Shown one piece after another: positions 11,888 to 19,480 of a stretch of 64,000 bases of DNA; the stretch's first letter is position 1; every line of letters begins with the position of its first letter. Under the pieces are notes generated by a model. The model did no database searches. It had not been told where the DNA came from and saw only the letters and a program-made list of their open reading frames with translations. The position numbers and the translations under genes were made by a program. The stretch comes from Diacronema lutheri (Eukaryota; Haptophyta; Pavlovophyceae; Pavlovales; Pavlovaceae): contig JAGTXO010000054.1 in the NCBI GenBank assembly GCA_019448385.1, forward strand, positions 124,001-188,000, written 5' to 3'.

Positions 11888-12751
11888 TCACAGCTTCGCG
11901 CTCGCCTCTTCGCCCTCCAGGTCGGCTTCTGTTTCCGCCTCCGCCCCCACGCTCTCCGAGTCCGTCTCCGCCTCCACCTCTGCCTCCATCTCCTCGCCCT
12001 CCGAGTGCGCACCGGCCTCGCCATCCAGCTCGTCGCCCGTGCCCGCCTGTAGCTGCAACCAGGCGAGCGTCTCCGCGTGGCCGTACGCCGCGGCCACGCT
12101 CACGCACAAGCGCAGCGTCCACGGGCAGCCGTGCGCACGCGCCCAGCGCAACAGCTCGACGCGGCCGTGCCGCGCCGCCGCGAAGCTCGTGTTGTCGCTC
12201 CACTCGCAGCCGCGCACGCGCGCCCACTGGAGCACGTGCAGGTGGCCCGCGCGCGCGGCGGCGGTGCACGTGTCCTCGCGCCATGTGCAGCCGTGCTCGC
12301 GCGCCCATCGGAGCACATCCAGATGGCCGCCCGCCGCGGCCACGGCGCACGTGTCGTTGTCCCACTCGCAGCCGTGTGCGCGCGCCCAGCGGAGCGCGTC
12401 GAGGTGGCCGCTTTGGGCCGCAAGCACGCACATTGTGCTGTGCAGCGCGCAACCCCGCTCACGCAGCCATGCGAGCGCGCCCACCAGCCCCTCGCGCGCG
12501 GCGAGCGCGCAGAGCTCCGCCTGCTCGGGCACGCCAAACGCCGCCGAGCGGAAACCGGGCAAGTCCCACGCCCACGCGGCGAGCGCGCGCGTGCGTAGCA
12601 TCGCCGACCGCGGTGTGCACGTCGGCCCGCCCGCCGCGTCGCGGAGCGCGCGACACGTCGCGCGCACGCAAAGCGCGTGCGTCGCGCCCGCGAGCGAGCA
12701 GATGCGCGTGAGCACGTCGACCGGGAGCACGACAAGCGTCGTTGTTGCCAT
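11888..12751 (-). CDS. F-box-like / ankyrin repeat protein
   Basis: The product is about 287 residues from ATG 12751; an in-frame ATG at 12844 would add 31. The first 45 residues (LVVLPVDVLTRICSLAG..CRALRDA) read like an F-box, which would link the protein to Skp1-type ubiquitin ligases. After that come six or so ankyrin-like repeats of the form LRWARAHGCEWDNDTC-AAAGGHLDV, each about 26-33 residues. This WAR-HGCPW-type repeat is common in algal genomes and in giant-virus ankyrin proteins. The C-terminus is a Glu-rich acidic tail ending EEASAKL. No intron is needed. It lies just upstream of the golgin gene on the same strand, with 47 bp between. Confidence 0.8.
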   Translation of the reverse strand: MATTTLVVLPVDVLTRICSLAGATHALCVRATCRALRDAAGGPTCTPRSAMLRTRALAAWAWDLPGFRSAAFGVPEQAELCALAAREGLVGALAWLRERGCALHSTMCVLAAQSGHLDALRWARAHGCEWDNDTCAVAAAGGHLDVLRWAREHGCTWREDTCTAAARAGHLHVLQWARVRGCEWSDNTSFAAARHGRVELLRWARAHGCPWTLRLCVSVAAAYGHAETLAWLQLQAGTGDELDGEAGAHSEGEEMEAEVEAETDSESVGAEAETEADLEGEEASAKL

Positions 12752-13540
12752 GCGCGCGGCGCCTATGCCGACGCTCGAGCGCATCGCCGCACACGCGCGT
12801 CCGAACGTCGGCGAGGGGGCTACGTCCCGCAACGTGCACGGCATCGACGGTTCGAAAAGCGCGGGAAACAGTCAGGAAACCTGCGGATGGCAACCTGCGG
12901 ATTGCCAGCAAACAGAACGGAGAGAAGACGTGTGGCCAGCCACGCTGAATCCGCAGCCGCAGTCACCACCCGCGGCGGCGGCCGGAGCGACGGCAGTAGG
13001 ACATAGGCCACGGGGCCGCACGACCGCAGTGGGAGCGCCTGCGTTCGAAGCCGGCCGATGGCGACGTCCCCGGCGAACGCCTTGTCGCTCACGAGCGCGG
13101 CGAACAGGGCCGGCGGATCTCGCCCGGGCACGCGCCCGCCGTCGCCCAAAGGAGCGTGAGGTCGGCCTCGTACCGCGCTGACATTGATGTGTGACGCGTC
13201 TTCGGGCGTGAGGGTGACACCCTCGAGGCGAAGCGTGTTTCCGAACGCGACCAGCTCGATACCCTTCGCGCCAACGCGCAGCTCCGCACGCGGGTACGCA
13301 CACTACGCGCATCGCTGCACGGACGGCGCGCACGCAAAGAGCTCGCGCCAGGCTCAGGGCCGTGCAGACATGGGGCGCTTGCCTGCGCGCGGCGGCGCAC
13401 CCCACTTTGGCACTACCTCCGGCCGAGCACGCGTGTCGCCCCACAGGAAAAGTCGTTGGCGTGCATGGGTGGCAGCGAGGTCACGCCAACTGTACGTACT
13501 CAGCTCGAATCGGGGCTTAATGGCTTCACCGGCCGCCCTC
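12752..13540. other. intergenic spacer, no gene seen
   Basis: Upstream flank of the ankyrin gene and 3' flank of the PAPS-synthesis gene. Frames on both strands are open in places but have no recognisable protein content, so I treat them as GC-driven shadows. Confidence 0.5.
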
Positions 13541-14734
13541 TCACGGCAGCCAGAAGCCCGTGTAAGGAACGGCCTTTGTTACGGCGAGCTTTTTCCACGC
13601 GTCGTTGCACTGCGTAATGACCGCTTTGGCCTCGTCGGCGCTGTCAGGCACGTCGGATGCGAGCACGTTGACCTCTTTGCCGTCGGTCGTCTTATACATC
13701 TTGAGCCAGTCGACGAGCGCGGGCAGCACGCCGGGCATCTCGCGCTCAAGGTCGGCGACGGAGTTGACTGCGCCCGCCTTCGGGTCGTCGAGCGCAAGCG
13801 CGAGGATCTTGTGGTCAAGCTCGCCCTGGTCGATCAGCTTGAGGTTGCCCAGCACCTTGACGGGCACGACCTCACCAACGCGCCGCTTGGCGCCGCCGAG
13901 CTCGATGATGTCGAGCGGATCGTTGTCGCCCGTGTGGTTGCCGCTGCGGTGCGCCGGGTCCTCCCAAGTCTGCGGGAGCAGCCCGTAATTGAAGAAGGTG
14001 AGGCCGTACGTGTACTCGCGCACCTTGCCCTTCTTCGAGTCGTGCTTGATCGGGTTGCCCGCCACGCCCTTCTGCACCTCGAGCTTGGACGTCGTGCCCT
14101 TGGGGATCTCGACGACCATCTGGTAGCCGTGCCCGCCCGGCGCGCCGAGCGCAACGTGGTGCCACGGCGACACGACCGGCGTGCTCGCCGCCTCGGGCGC
14201 GAGGCCGGGCGTCGAGCGGTCGAACGAGACGGCGAAGGAGAGCGCGTTGAATTTGCCCGAAGCCTTGGCGTACGGCGCGAGCGCGGGCGGCTCGTGCATT
14301 GTCGAGTAGGGCACCTGCGCATCATGGCGGCGGCGGCGGCGATGTGCGCGCGGCGCGGCGCTGTCAGCCCGCACGCGAGCCCGTGCGCGCGCGCGCGCGC
14401 GTGCGCGCGGCGCGGTGGCGACGCACCCACTCCTTGGTCTCCTTGTTCTGGTAATAGTCGACCATCTTGGCCCAGCCGCCCTCGACCATGAAGCCGGGCG
14501 GGATGCACTTTGCCGCGAGCAGGTCCTTCGGGATCTCGGCGGGGCACGGCACGGCGCCCAGCGCGGCAAGCGTGCGCATCTTGGTGCCCGAGATCGAGAT
14601 GAAGTCGTCGGCGCGCGCCTTCTCCTTGGGCTTCATCGTGTGGTCGCGCTTGTCGTAGTAGACCTGCCAAGCAAGGGGTGGCGCGCGCGTGAGGCGCGCA
14701 CGGCGCGCAGGCGCAGGCGCAGGCGCGAGTGCGC

Positions 14735-14770
<36 letters not shown>

Positions 14771-17232
14771 GGTGCGCGGGCGCGGCGCACCTGCTGGAAT
14801 GAGATGAACTCCATCGATCCGACGCCCGGTGAGTAGGAGAGCACGTACCGGCCGTGGTCGCCATTGTACAGGTCCTCACCCTTGAGCGGGCCGGCGGTCG
14901 AGCGCGGCATGCCGGCGGGGTCGCGCCCGACGACGAAGAAGGAGGCGCCGCCAATCCGCCTGCTCTTGGCGTGGAATTGCACCTCCGTCGGCCCCGCGTA
15001 GATCATCGGCGCGGGCCAGATCGCCATGACTGTCGACTCGGCGTCAAGCATCCCCTCGTTGATCACCGCGTCGTGCTGCTGCACGCGCACGTCGAGGGGC
15101 ACGTCCGAGTCCTTGGTCCAGCCGCCGAGCGGCGAGAGCCAGAGCACCGGGTTCTTGTACCCGCGCTTCTTGAGCTGGCGCTGCGCGTCGCGCATCAGGA
15201 AGGCGTGCCCCGCGTGCGTCGGGTTGCGCGTCTGGAAGGCGAAGACGGTGTCCGCCTTGCGCCGCGCAAACTCGGCGCGCAGCTCGTTGACGGTCAGCCG
15301 GAACTGGTCGAGGCCGTCGCCGTACGCGATCTTGCCGAGGAGCTGCACCTCGCCGCCGAGCAGCCAATCGCCCGCCGAAGCGATGAGCCCGATGTACGGG
15401 TGCGCCGGATCGATGGCGCCAAAGCAGCGCGCGATGATCTCCTCCTTGCGGTGCGCGTACACCTCGGGCCGGCGGAGGACGGCGAGCGGCTTGCCCGCGG
15501 ACGAGTAGAGGGTCACGGCCGCGGCACCGGCGATCTGCCGCCTGGTGAATTCGCTGATCGGCAGCGTGATCGGGATCGGCATCGAGACGCGCGTGGGCGG
15601 CTGCACGGCGGTGTGCAACCAGTCAGTCTGTCGCTCGAGGTAGCCCGCCATGCCGGTGAAGTTGTGCGGGTCGACCATCAGCGAGTTGAAGTGGAGCGCC
15701 TGCATGAGCGCGCCCTCGCGCATGAAGCCGCGCAGCGGCGACGCCCAACCCTCGCCGATCACCTGCAGCCAGTTGACGTCAACGTCGCGCAGCGGCACGC
15801 CCGGCAGCGTGCGCGCCTCATCGCGCAGCGCGAGCAGCGCCTCGCCGCGCGCGATCAGGTCGACGACGACGCCGCCGTCAGGCGGCGCGAGCGCCGGGTT
15901 GTCCACGGCCTCGCCCGAGAGCAGGCCGCGCGCCTCGAGCTGCCGGATCACGTGGTCGACGCACTCCTGCACGGACAGCTCGTGCGTGCGCAGCGTCACC
16001 TCCGGGTCGAGGGGCTCCTCGTACGGCGCGTCGACGCCGGTGAAGCCCTTGATCTCGCCGGCGTCGACCTTCTTGTACAGGCCCTTCGGGTCGCGCCTGC
16101 GCAGCACGTCGAGCGGCACGTCCAGGTAGCTGCGCACACGCGCGCGCCGAGAGCCGCCCCGCCCCGCCCCGCGCGCGCGCGCGCGCGTCAGGTGGGGCGG
16201 CGCGAGCGCGGCGGGTGCGTGCGCGCGCGCACGTCTCGAGGAATGGGAGGCCCTTGTCGCGGTGCAGTGAGCGCGCCGCGTTGCGCGCCTCGCGGTACGG
16301 CGAGATCAGCGTCACCATCGTGATCACGCCCGCGTCGGCGAAGAGCGCGGCCGTCTCTGACGCGCGCCGGACGGACTCGCCGCGGTCGGACGGCGAGAAG
16401 CCGAGATCGCGCGTGAGGCCAGTGCGCAGGTTGTCACCGTCGATGCGGTACACCGTCTTGCCGTGCTTGAAGATGAGCTCGCGCTCGAGTGCCTCGGTGA
16501 TCGTCGTCTTGCCCGCACCGGACAGGCCCGTGAACCACAGCGTCACGCCCTGCTGCCCGAGCCGCTTGAAGCGCTGCGCGCGGTCGGCGCGGCAGTCCTT
16601 GCCGGGCGCGCACTCAATAATGTTGGCGCCCACGTGCTGCAGCATCTTGCTCCGGTGCCTGCGCGCGCGCCGCGCGCGCGCCACACGTCGGCGCGCGCCC
16701 CGAGCTGCGCGCGCGCGCGCGCGCCGCGCGCGCGCGCGCACTCGGCGACGAGCTTGGCAACGTCGGGCGAGGGGCAGCCCTTGGTGACCGATTCGGGCAG
16801 CTCCACCTTCGGGCAAAACGGCTCGGGGCAGCGCGGCTCGGGGCAGCGCGGCGTCGGGCACTTGGCCTGCGGGCACTCGGGCGTCGGGCAGCCCTTGAGC
16901 ACCTCGCCGAGCACGCCCTTGATGTTGGGGCAGATGGCCTCCGCGGTGGGGCAGGGCGGCGGCGGCTTGTACATGGCCTGCTGATACGCGATCAGCAGCA
17001 GCGTGGCGGCGACCATGCCGCCGAGGAAGGCGAGCGGTGCGCGCATCGTGCCCGCGGCCTGGACGCGCCGCGAGCGGTCAAAGTCGTCGTCGTCGTCGAT
17101 CGGCGATGCGTACCGTCCCTGCGCGGCGCAGGCGGGCGGGCGGCGGGCTCGGGTCAGCCGCGCCGCGCCGAGCCGCGCGCGCGAGCTCGCGCGCGCGCCA
17201 CGCGCTCCCTCGCGCGCTGAGCGACTTGCCAT
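13541..17232 (-). CDS. membrane-anchored APS kinase - ATP sulfurylase - inorganic pyrophosphatase fusion
   Basis: Five exons (17232-16742, 16658-16233, 16129-14791, 14663-14427, 14314-13541) join in phase to about 1088 residues. Residues 1-62 are basic with a DDDDDFD stretch; about 66-86 is one membrane helix; about 91-156 is a Cys-Pro stalk (CPTPRCPEPRCPEPFCP). APS kinase follows (P-loop GLSGAGKTT, DGDNLRTGL, DPKGLYKK, GEIKGFTG), then ATP sulfurylase (QTRNPTHAGH, GRDPAGM), then a family I pyrophosphatase (NYGLLPQTWED, GDNDPLDIIEL). The chain makes APS from sulfate and ATP, phosphorylates it to PAPS, and hydrolyses the released pyrophosphate, which pulls the unfavourable first step. Such fusions are known in chromist algae. 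The anchor and stalk imply a membrane-bound form; whether the enzymes face cytosol or lumen cannot be told. An ATG at 17046 would start just before the helix. It is divergent from the MYB gene. Confidence 0.92.
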
Positions 17233-17591
17233 ACACGACCCGCACCGCTGCCTGCGTCCGCGCTTTAGAAAACCGCGGCGGTTTCGGTTTGCGGCCGGCG
17301 CCGCAGCGGGCCTGGCCTGTGGGCTGTGTGTGCCGCGCGTTGCGGTGGGCGCTGCGGCGAGACGCACAGAATGCACGGGCGCGCCGCTGCGCCTGCGTGC
17401 GCGCGCGCGCGCAGCCCGCTCCGCCGCACGCGCGCCGCGCCGCGCCGCGCGCACGGCGACCCCGGCTGGACGGTTTGTGTCCGGTAGGAGATTTTCGTTG
17501 ACGTTTTAAAAGACGCGCGCTGGCGCGAGTTCCGACAAAGCTTTCCCCTCATCCAAAAATTCGGGAGCGTTTCATCACGCCCACGCCCGGG
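17233..17591. promoter_or_regulatory. shared divergent promoter, PAPS fusion / MYB
   Basis: 359 bp separate the two start codons on opposite strands, so both promoters must lie here. It contains alternating CG stretches and a less GC-rich patch near 17480-17580. No clear TATA box is seen. Confidence 0.6.
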
Positions 17592-19480
17592 ATGACGACC
17601 ATCCGCCACGCCGAAGACGAACCGACTGACGCGGAGCTCGATGGCATCCGCCTGTCGAGCGCCACGCTTGCGCTCGCCACCGCGCATCCCGCCGCGCCAC
17701 TCCGCGCCGCCGCGCCGCCCGCCTTGGACGCCCCTCACGCGCGCGCGCCTGCCGGGCCCCCGACCGTGCTCTCCGACCTGGATTCGCAGGACACGGACGG
17801 CGAAGGCGCGCGCCCCAAGTGGGTGAAGAACCCGTGGTCGGCGGAGGAAGACAAGCTGTACGATCGCCGCGCGCGAGCGCGCGCGCTCCACGCCGCCGAC
17901 CCGCGCGCGAGCGCGCGAGCGCCCACCCAAGCATTGCCCACACGCTCGCGCGCGCACCGTGCGCTCGCACGCCCGCGCGCGCAGGCTGATGGAGCTGATC
18001 GCGGAGCACGGCGCGCGGAACTGGACCAAAATCTCGGAGGGCATGGACAACCGCGCGGGCAAGCAGTGCCGCGAGCGTTGGGTCCAGCACCTCTGCCCCG
18101 ACGTGAAGAAGGGCGCGTGGTCAGCCGAGGAGGACGCGATCATCGCCGCGGAGGTGCAGCGGCAGGGCACGCGCTGGAACGAGATCGCCAAGCTGCTCAC
18201 TGGGCGCACGGACAACGCGATCAAGAACAGGTGGAACTCCGCGCGGCGCAAGGAGCTCAAGCAACAGCTGCGGTGCGCGCCACGCGCTCGCGGCGCGTGC
18301 GAGGCGTGCGCGCGCCCAACGCCCACCGGACGCGCCGCGCCCCCGCCTCGCCGCCTCGCACTGCGCAGCATGCAGCGCGGCATCGGGCTGCGCGCCAAGG
18401 CACAGAGGCCGCTCTTGCACGCCTTGCCGCCGCCGCGACACACGAGCGACATTACGACCGATGGGTGCGCACGCCTCGCCATCGCGTGCGCGCGCGTGCA
18501 GGGTCCCAGCATGGTGCCCACCCACGAGTGCGCGCCCGCGCCCACGCCGTGACGCACGCTGCGCCCTCTCGCGCGCGCCGCACGCTGCCCCTCTCTTCCC
18601 CCCCCCCCCCCCCCTCCCCGTCCCCCGCCCACGCAAGCGCAGCTCGGAGAGCGCGCCCGCGCCTGCACCGCCCGCGTCGGTCGAGCGGCCGACGGACGGC
18701 ACGCCCGCTCCGCCAAGCAAGCGCACACGCGCCGAGCAGCCGCGCGCAGGCGCGGCAGGCGCGTCAAGCTCTGCGCCGAGCAAGCCGAAGAAGCGCGCGG
18801 GCGCAACCGACACGCGCACGCTCATCTCGCGCGCGAAGGCGATCATCCTCGCCACGCCGCCGCACTCGGCCGAGCGCGCCGAGGCGTGGCGGTACATGGA
18901 CGTTGTCCGGCTGCTCGACTGCGGCACGGCGGGCGTGGCGACGCAGGCGCTCGTAGATGCGCGCGACCTCGAGTTGTACGAGGAGCTCGCGTGCTCCGCG
19001 GCCGACGACGAGTTTGCGCCGGGTGACGGCCCGGCGGCGCACGACGGCTTCCTCTTGTCGCCGCGCGCCGAGGTTGGGGCGGCGTCCAAGCGCGCGCGCA
19101 ACAAGCCGCGCGACGCGCCGGCGAGCGACTCGTCACCTGACGTGTTCGGCACTATGTGGATGCATGCCGAGGCCGTCGACGGCCTGAGCATCGCGCTCGA
19201 CGACCCGAGCGGCATCGCACCATCGCTCATACGGCCGTCGCCGGGCGAGGCACGCACGCTCTTCCCGCTCTCGCCCACCTCGCCAAGCGAGCTCGGGCAA
19301 CAGCGCGGCGATGTGGCGCTGGGGCTGCTTTTGCCCGCCGCGCACGGCGCGCAGCAGCTCGGTGTTGCCGCGGACGGCGGCGCGGCGGGAGCCGGCGGCA
19401 AGGAGCCGCAAGACGAGTTTTGGGCGGGCCTTGGGTTCGGCAGCTTTGGCGCGATGCAGATGCGCGCGTTGGTGGCGTGA
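17592..19480 (+). CDS. R2R3-MYB transcription factor
   Basis: Exons 17592-17857, 17985-18272 and 18643-19480 join in phase to 463 residues. Donors are CT|GTACGA and CG|GTGCGC; the 370-bp second intron ends in a C-rich tract (18598-18614) before acceptor GCAG. The joined frame restores R2 (NPWSAEEDKL-LMELIAEHG-RNWTKISEGM-RAGKQCRERW) and R3 ([36 protein letters not shown]), with the spaced Trp residues and the DNA-contacting third helices. After R3 comes KELKQQL and a long Ser/Ala/Pro tail with basic patches (PSKRTRA, KPKKRAG) likely to act in nuclear import. R2R3 proteins bind MYB recognition sites; animal c-Myb-like or plant-like subgroup is not decided. Head to head with the PAPS fusion. Confidence 0.92.

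Follow-up and report, generated by a model that had tools for sequence, protein, structure and literature searches.

Fusions of ATP sulfurylase to pyrophosphatase are described in the available text of Patron et al. (2008) from species including Pavlova lutheri and Emiliania huxleyi; the E. huxleyi fusion is placed there in the cytosol, and the Thalassiosira pseudonana fusion is given a signal peptide that was interpreted as an unusual plastid retargeting. Pavlova lutheri is the older name of Diacronema lutheri. A longer fusion, in which APS kinase (APK), ATP sulfurylase (ATPS) and pyrophosphatase are combined, is drawn as cytosolic for diatoms and haptophytes in the accessible part of Prioretti (2014, Fig. 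3C, citing Bradley 2009). As far as these sources go, the kinase-sulfurylase-pyrophosphatase fusion is thus known, and its sulfurylase-pyrophosphatase half is known from P. lutheri itself. Both the fusion and the forward pull exerted by pyrophosphate removal, which an earlier sequence-only reading of this DNA had treated as established, are indeed in print. Outside the cytosol, sulfate activation is placed in Entamoeba mitosomes (PMC3149026, as available in part) and, in the passages available, in Euglena mitochondria.

Within the window, the whole 64,000-nt stretch of D. lutheri DNA that was analysed and from whose first letter all positions are counted, we found on the minus strand a single open frame made of five blocks joined via GT-AG introns of 83, 103, 127 and 112 nt, all four of which start with GTGCG and end with CAG (Table 1). 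Along the encoded protein the Pfam domains follow each other in the order APS_kinase, PUA_2, ATP-sulfurylase and Pyrophosphatase. A weaker AAA_33 match overlaps the APS_kinase match in the same search. The motifs GLSGAGKTT (P-loop), HAGH, GRDPAG and GDNDPLD, to which we attribute catalytic roles in their respective enzymes, are kept in the translation for all three domains. The best PDB match of the protein was PAPS synthetase 1 (1x6v, E 1e-167), with 49% identity across the aligned ATP sulfurylase stretch; HAGH aligns with the HNGH histidine motif of that enzyme, and GRDPAGMP and the kinase P-loop likewise align. The joined blocks and the Pfam order bear out the earlier claim that one frame encodes APS kinase, ATP sulfurylase and family I pyrophosphatase with their key motifs. 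The APS kinase-ATP sulfurylase-pyrophosphatase gene of D. lutheri is real, and by motif retention its product would fit a functional PAPS synthase. For the ATP sulfurylase part, the best PDB matches were PAPS synthetase 1 and ATP sulfurylase 4maf, presumably the soybean enzyme. These matches, together with the presence of a plastid-type leader on a different ATP sulfurylase gene, indicate that the sulfurylase of the fusion is probably of the eukaryotic PAPS-synthase type and not of the plastid type.

Table 1. Features of the fusion gene, in positions of the window.
Feature	Position	Strand	Basis
Probable 5' leader intron, GTGCGG...CAG, 127 nt	17119..17245	(-)	No coding signal; composition; consensus ends
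5' leader; coding tail GRYASPIDDDDDFDRSRRVQAAGT in case the start lies in an upstream exon	17047..17118	(-)	Weak coding signal
Coding blocks	17046 (or 17118)-16742, 16658-16233, 16129-14791, 14663-14427, 14314-13541	(-)	Open-frame joining
First coding exon from the likeliest start ATG	16742..17046	(-)	Coding score; ATG positions and context
Hydrophobic segment PLAFLGGMVAATLLLIAY, signal anchor or signal peptide	16984..17037	(-)	Hydropathy
Cys-Pro stalk	16774..16953	(-)	Nine Cys-Pro pairs; DNA with tandem 15-bp repeats within 16819-16892
Intron between stalk exon and kinase exon, 83 nt, in frame	16659..16741	(-)	
APS kinase domain, split by intron 16232-16130	15991..16552	(-)	PF01583, E 5e-57
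PUA-like N-terminal domain of ATP sulfurylase (PUA_2)	15337..15885	(-)	PF14306, E 5e-35
ATP sulfurylase catalytic domain with HAGH and GRDPAG, split by intron 14790-14664	14544..15306	(-)	PF01747, E 3e-51
Family I inorganic pyrophosphatase domain with GDNDPLD	13592..14119	(-)	PF00719, E 9e-33
Last exon; stop codon ends at 13541	13541..14314	(-)	

The beginning of the protein was examined using a codon model of 2347 codons, drawn from exons 2-5 of the fusion gene and four other D. lutheri genes with exon 1 left out. The segment carrying the helix and the stalk (17046-16744) scored +0.36 per codon versus a shuffle mean of -0.49, and none of 2000 shuffles scored as high. The next segment upstream (17118-17047) scored +0.16, a value reached in 24 of 2000 shuffles, and 17232-17119 scored -0.51, equal to the shuffle mean (1031/2000 shuffles as high). 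The composition of 17232-17119 is close to that of introns, with a GC of 0.84 and CG+GC steps of 0.54; on these two measures the four introns range over 0.84-0.92 and 0.55-0.74, and exons 2 and 3 over 0.69-0.70 and 0.31-0.32. The GTGCGG at 17245 as donor and the CAG at 17119 as acceptor would delimit a 127-nt intron, and CG and 14-bp repeats occur at 17156-17217. The minus strand has no ATG between 17552 and 17232; past the acceptor at 17119, an ATG is first met at 17046, with an A at -3. A start at 17232, on which the sequence-only reading had relied, was rejected as the likeliest one since coding signal is absent upstream of 17119 and the composition and splice ends make the 127-nt intron probable; its residues 1-62 are probably untranslated, residues 1-38 falling within that probable intron. 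The likeliest translation start is 17046; the product is then most likely a protein of 1026 residues with the N-terminus MRAPLAFLGGMVAATLLLIAYQQAMYKPPPPC, and the helix lies at its extreme N-terminus. The stalk, formerly put at about residues 91-156 of 1088, then has its cysteines within residues 32-91. The weak signal in 17118-17047 would allow for a coding exon further upstream, a possible one running from an ATG at 17552 to a GTGCGG donor at 17429 with an in-phase splice to 17118. The sequence around that exon gave negative coding scores in every frame, and the helix and stalk stand either way.

The hydrophobic segment reaches a 19-residue Kyte-Doolittle mean of 1.95, the maximum of the protein, which was matched by one of 2000 dinucleotide shuffles. 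Pro follows every one of the nine stalk cysteines (residues 32, 39, 53, 58, 63, 68, 73, 78 and 91), and six of the cysteines are set at exact five-residue spacing. The stalk probably grew by slippage, given the tandem repeats of its underlying DNA. A PDB search with the stalk returned no significant match (best E 0.089). The exon encoding helix and stalk is coding and joined in frame to the kinase exon; on this point hydropathy, the Cys-Pro series, the coding score and the in-frame join all agree with what had been read from the letters.

When the stalk was used as a protein query against the genome, it recovered itself and three weak partial matches (L004-L006). None was retained as a relative: L004 is an out-of-frame reading of an AELPS repeat, and open-frame lists place a stop inside the match in both L005 and L006. 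A DNA pattern for C-P-x-P-x-C-P-x-P, covering one Cys-Pro spacing, matched the genome 98 times (65 forward, 33 reverse), including two matches within the stalk of the fusion, and the reversed pattern used as a control gave 7 forward and 14 reverse matches. Neighbouring matches were merged and the first match per stretch was kept, leaving 40 sites outside the fusion (24 + 16) to be scored. At none of these 40 sites was the coding score in the Cys-Pro frame positive, compared to +0.36 for the stalk itself; this frame was the best of six at four sites, yet with negative scores (-0.23, -0.25, -0.44 and -0.11), and tied for best at one (-0.35). Protein scans of viral_contigs and genome_contigs returned no relatives of the fusion protein. 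A three-row alignment search returned no viral relative and six bacterial ATP sulfurylases, five from Poribacteria and one from Latescibacterota; three forward frames at the six loci contained neither the kinase nor the pyrophosphatase motif that was looked for, and no helix was seen by eye at the printed N-termini. In a literature search we found neither a membrane-anchored or luminal PAPS synthase nor a Cys-Pro stalk on one. On the proposal that the stalk is undescribed, the 40 sites gave no further copy in a coding frame and the literature search gave no description, the latter being a weak test.

In a six-frame genome search, APS kinase was not found outside the fusion gene, the two matches both being fusion exons. 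One further ATP sulfurylase match was obtained, in an open frame with MMKLPVVVLVLLVDCALGFGGPLAARRG, a bipartite plastid-type leader. A protein of the APS/PAPS-reductase family carries a thioredoxin domain and a leader akin to that of this second ATP sulfurylase, and one separate pyrophosphatase also has a plastid-type leader. The genome holds in addition a second PAPS_reduct match (L014) and a third pyrophosphatase gene (C69), with an EF-hand domain upstream of the pyrophosphatase. Given the thioredoxin domain of the reductase, sulfur reduction in the plastid seems to be served by a separate ATP sulfurylase, which would leave the fusion gene for sulfation. Exon-wise matches, which are not gene counts, numbered 15 for Sulfotransfer_1 and six for Sulfotransfer_2. 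Inspected by eye, the best Sulfotransfer_1 frame (L027) starts with neither a signal nor a helix, and this sulfotransferase is thus probably cytosolic. The UAA family of transporters gave 14 matches, 10 of them above the cut-off, among which L016 aligns to SLC35B1 and, we presume, resembles the PAPS transporter PAPST1.

The leader of the fusion was compared with those of three D. lutheri proteins of plastid type (L001, L009 and L013). In each of the three, a hydrophobic start gives way to an Arg/Ser/Ala leader, a pattern that the fusion does not share. Past its own hydrophobic core, the fusion has within 30 residues 2 Cys, 6 Pro, 3 Lys/Arg, 2 acidic residues and 1 Ser/Thr; the comparable region contains 4-5 Lys/Arg, no acidic residue and 5-6 Ser/Thr in L001 and L013, and 5 Lys/Arg and 2 acidic residues in L009. 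The fusion does not follow the pattern of secondary red plastid targeting, a signal peptide and then a basic, acid-poor transit peptide. As read from its sequence, it also departs from the published haptophyte form, for which no N-terminal targeting sequence is given, by its coding hydrophobic N-terminus. Type II signal-anchored Golgi enzymes consist of an N-terminal helix, a stalk and then a luminal catalytic domain; a helix and a stalk are seen in the fusion, whose head may or may not lie in the lumen. Four exostosin N-termini served as a yardstick, too few to calibrate: a plausible helix is present in L095 and L096, the sole hydrophobic stretch of L097 adjoins stop codons and L098 has no such stretch, while the printed N-terminal residues of all four are devoid of a repeated Cys-Pro stalk.

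We lean towards viewing the fusion as a PAPS synthase of the sulfation branch, signal-anchored in the ER or Golgi with its catalytic head either luminal or cytosolic. One N-terminal signal-anchor helix would hold the enzyme on a secretory-pathway membrane, and the Cys-Pro hinge would space the head away from it. ATP sulfurylase would yield APS and pyrophosphate, the C-terminal pyrophosphatase would remove the latter and render the sulfurylase step one-way, and APS kinase would convert APS to PAPS next to the site at which glycans and proteins for secretion receive their sulfate. We infer that the helix is uncleaved, that the membrane is that of the ER or Golgi and that the stalk is a spacer or a disulfide hinge for a dimer. 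The ER/Golgi anchor is favoured by the three enzymes lying in one frame whose helix and stalk carry a strong coding signal, by the position of the helix when translation starts at ATG 17046, by the absence of a plastid-type leader that three other proteins of the genome possess, and by the sulfotransferase families and UAA-type nucleotide transporters of the genome; the absence, by eye, of a small-X-small cleavage site after the helix favours an uncleaved anchor, and no APS kinase was found in the genome outside this gene. The anchor is weakened by the cytosolic placement of the haptophyte fusion in the available published accounts, and by the fact that the leader could also be a mitochondrial outer-membrane anchor or a P450-like anchor facing the cytosol. 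The sequence-only proposal of PAPS synthesis at a membrane stands as the simplest reading of the N-terminus, in which a plastid leader is absent, and loses the N-terminal 62 residues, which are probably not protein. The gene suggests that D. lutheri may make PAPS, the universal donor of sulfate, at, or even inside, secretory membranes. PAPS may be delivered beside sulfotransferases or a transporter, as also proposed, and which of the two receives it would depend on the orientation of the head.

Charge and signal-peptide rules, applied here in place of a predictor, bear on both cleavage and topology. The helix is preceded by the Met amine and an Arg and followed by one Lys and then Glu; this slightly more positive charge before it, together with the lack of a small-X-small site, predicts a type II anchor that stays uncleaved and leaves the head in the lumen, and a Cys-rich stalk would suit the oxidising lumen. 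An NHT glycosylation sequon begins three residues ahead of the pyrophosphatase active-site GDNDP, which weakens this orientation. Animals produce their PAPS in the cytosol or nucleus, and transporters bring it into the Golgi. With a luminal head, which we put forward tentatively, the sole PAPS synthase found would face the ER/Golgi lumen and work with imported ATP and sulfate, a luminal pyrophosphatase pull and a disulfide-linked hinge; PAPS would be made inside the compartment of its use and its import into the Golgi would be unneeded. To our knowledge, such a luminal PAPS factory would be the first.

Microsomal P450s have an N-terminal helix with the N-terminus in the lumen. The fusion might be held likewise, or be inserted in the mitochondrial outer membrane, with its head in the cytosol where PAPS would be made, some of it for a Golgi transporter. 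The metabolic context favours this arrangement: APS kinase was found in this gene and nowhere else, and a sulfotransferase starts without a signal or membrane segment, so that cytosolic PAPS is probably needed; the UAA-family protein L016 resembles SLC35B1 and presumably PAPST1; and human PAPS synthases reach nucleus and cytoplasm (PMC3252339, available in part). Against it stand the charge balance around the helix, which favours an N-in, C-luminal topology, and nine cysteines in a short stalk, which suit an oxidising lumen better. We regard a luminal and a cytosol-facing head as about equally likely, each a possibility short of probable; within the ER/Golgi anchor we prefer, the luminal head takes about the same place and the cytosolic head a slightly lower one, the remainder of the cytosol-facing arrangement lying outside it.

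It is unlikely that the anchor exon lies outside the main product. Transcription or translation would then normally begin within the kinase exon, with the Met of KMLQHVGANII directly upstream of the kinase domain as one candidate start, and give an ordinary cytosolic fusion such as the available accounts describe for haptophytes; however, shuffles never equalled the coding signal of the stalk exon (0/2000), the intron that follows is in frame and of the gene's own GTGCG...CAG type, and its 83 nt offer scant room for a promoter. More doubtful still is a cleaved signal peptide, releasing a soluble luminal or secreted enzyme whose mature chain would start with a Cys-Pro tail. A helix at the extreme N-terminus after a short basic n-region would agree with cleavage, but no small-X-small site follows it and, as a weak point, its hydropathy of 1.95 exceeds that of two of the three plastid-type leaders (1.26 and 1.48; 2.24 for the third). 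Plastid delivery through an unusual bipartite leader, modelled on the signal peptide and transit-like region of the T. pseudonana fusion in the available text of Patron et al. (2008), is the least probable alternative and is disfavoured by a leader unlike those of the three plastid-type proteins, its 30 post-core residues being poor in Ser/Thr with two acidic residues, unlike L001 and L013, and by the separate ATP sulfurylase with its own plastid-type leader.

A PAPS synthase that carries its own pyrophosphatase and is held on a membrane, possibly in the lumen, would show that the donor factory can be placed where sulfation occurs; it would also be relevant to the synthesis of sulfated polysaccharides in haptophytes. 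It would also offer another view of the signal peptide of the T. pseudonana fusion, taken as plastid retargeting in the published text available. The mitosomes of Entamoeba and mitochondria of Euglena are precedents for sulfate activation outside the cytosol, yet they are mitochondrial or related, whereas secretory membranes are proposed for D. lutheri; our literature search found no precedent on or in the latter. Animal PAPSS1/2 resemble the D. lutheri fusion in having APS kinase N-terminal to ATP sulfurylase, and differ from it, in the descriptions available, in lacking a pyrophosphatase, anchor or stalk and in residing in nucleus and cytoplasm. Soluble family I pyrophosphatases, which gave many PDB matches with GDNDP kept, correspond here to the C-terminal domain of the fusion, besides the two separate copies of the genome described above. 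The IgG-type hinge is a Cys-Pro repeat segment between domains, and the stalk is like it in its short extended Cys-Pro repeats, a likeness that does not imply homology. The closest relative remains the APK-ATPS-pyrophosphatase fusion of haptophytes and diatoms, with which the D. lutheri gene shares the three enzymes, their order and the species group. The haptophyte fusion is described as cytosolic and, in the accounts available, without mention of a membrane helix or Cys-Pro stalk, whereas the D. lutheri gene has both; we conclude that anchor and stalk constitute a well-supported, possibly undescribed variant of a known fusion.

The introns of the fusion gene at 16741-16659 and 16232-16130 are very abundant in CG and GC steps, their donors being GTGCG, and these runs read as Ala/Arg-rich frames when translated. 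Such runs can mislead gene models, and the start called at 17232 in the sequence-only reading was probably produced by a misreading of this kind.

The ATG of the open stretch carrying Myb repeats, placed by eye at 17592, lies about 550 bases from the fusion ATG at 17046, a spacing from which a short bidirectional promoter common to both genes may be proposed. Downstream of the fusion gene is situated an open frame whose ankyrin-like repeats take the form AAxxGHLDxLRWARxHGC.

Features in the neighbourhood of the fusion gene and at a second locus of the same assembly
Feature	Position	Strand	Remark
Open stretch, two Myb DNA-binding repeats	about 17592-18275	+	divergent from fusion gene
Open frame, ankyrin-like repeats	about 11888-12752	-	Ank_4, E 6e-8
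Pyrophosphatase gene, EF-hand pair upstream	L088 (G000:C69:1458200-1461500)		

Stand-alone ATP sulfurylases are encoded on six contigs (L099-L104), five of them from Poribacteria and the sixth from Latescibacterota; over the compared stretch these enzymes share 49-53% identity with that of the fusion. The EF-hand and pyrophosphatase arrangement of L088 is similar to that of the trypanosomatid vacuolar soluble pyrophosphatases.
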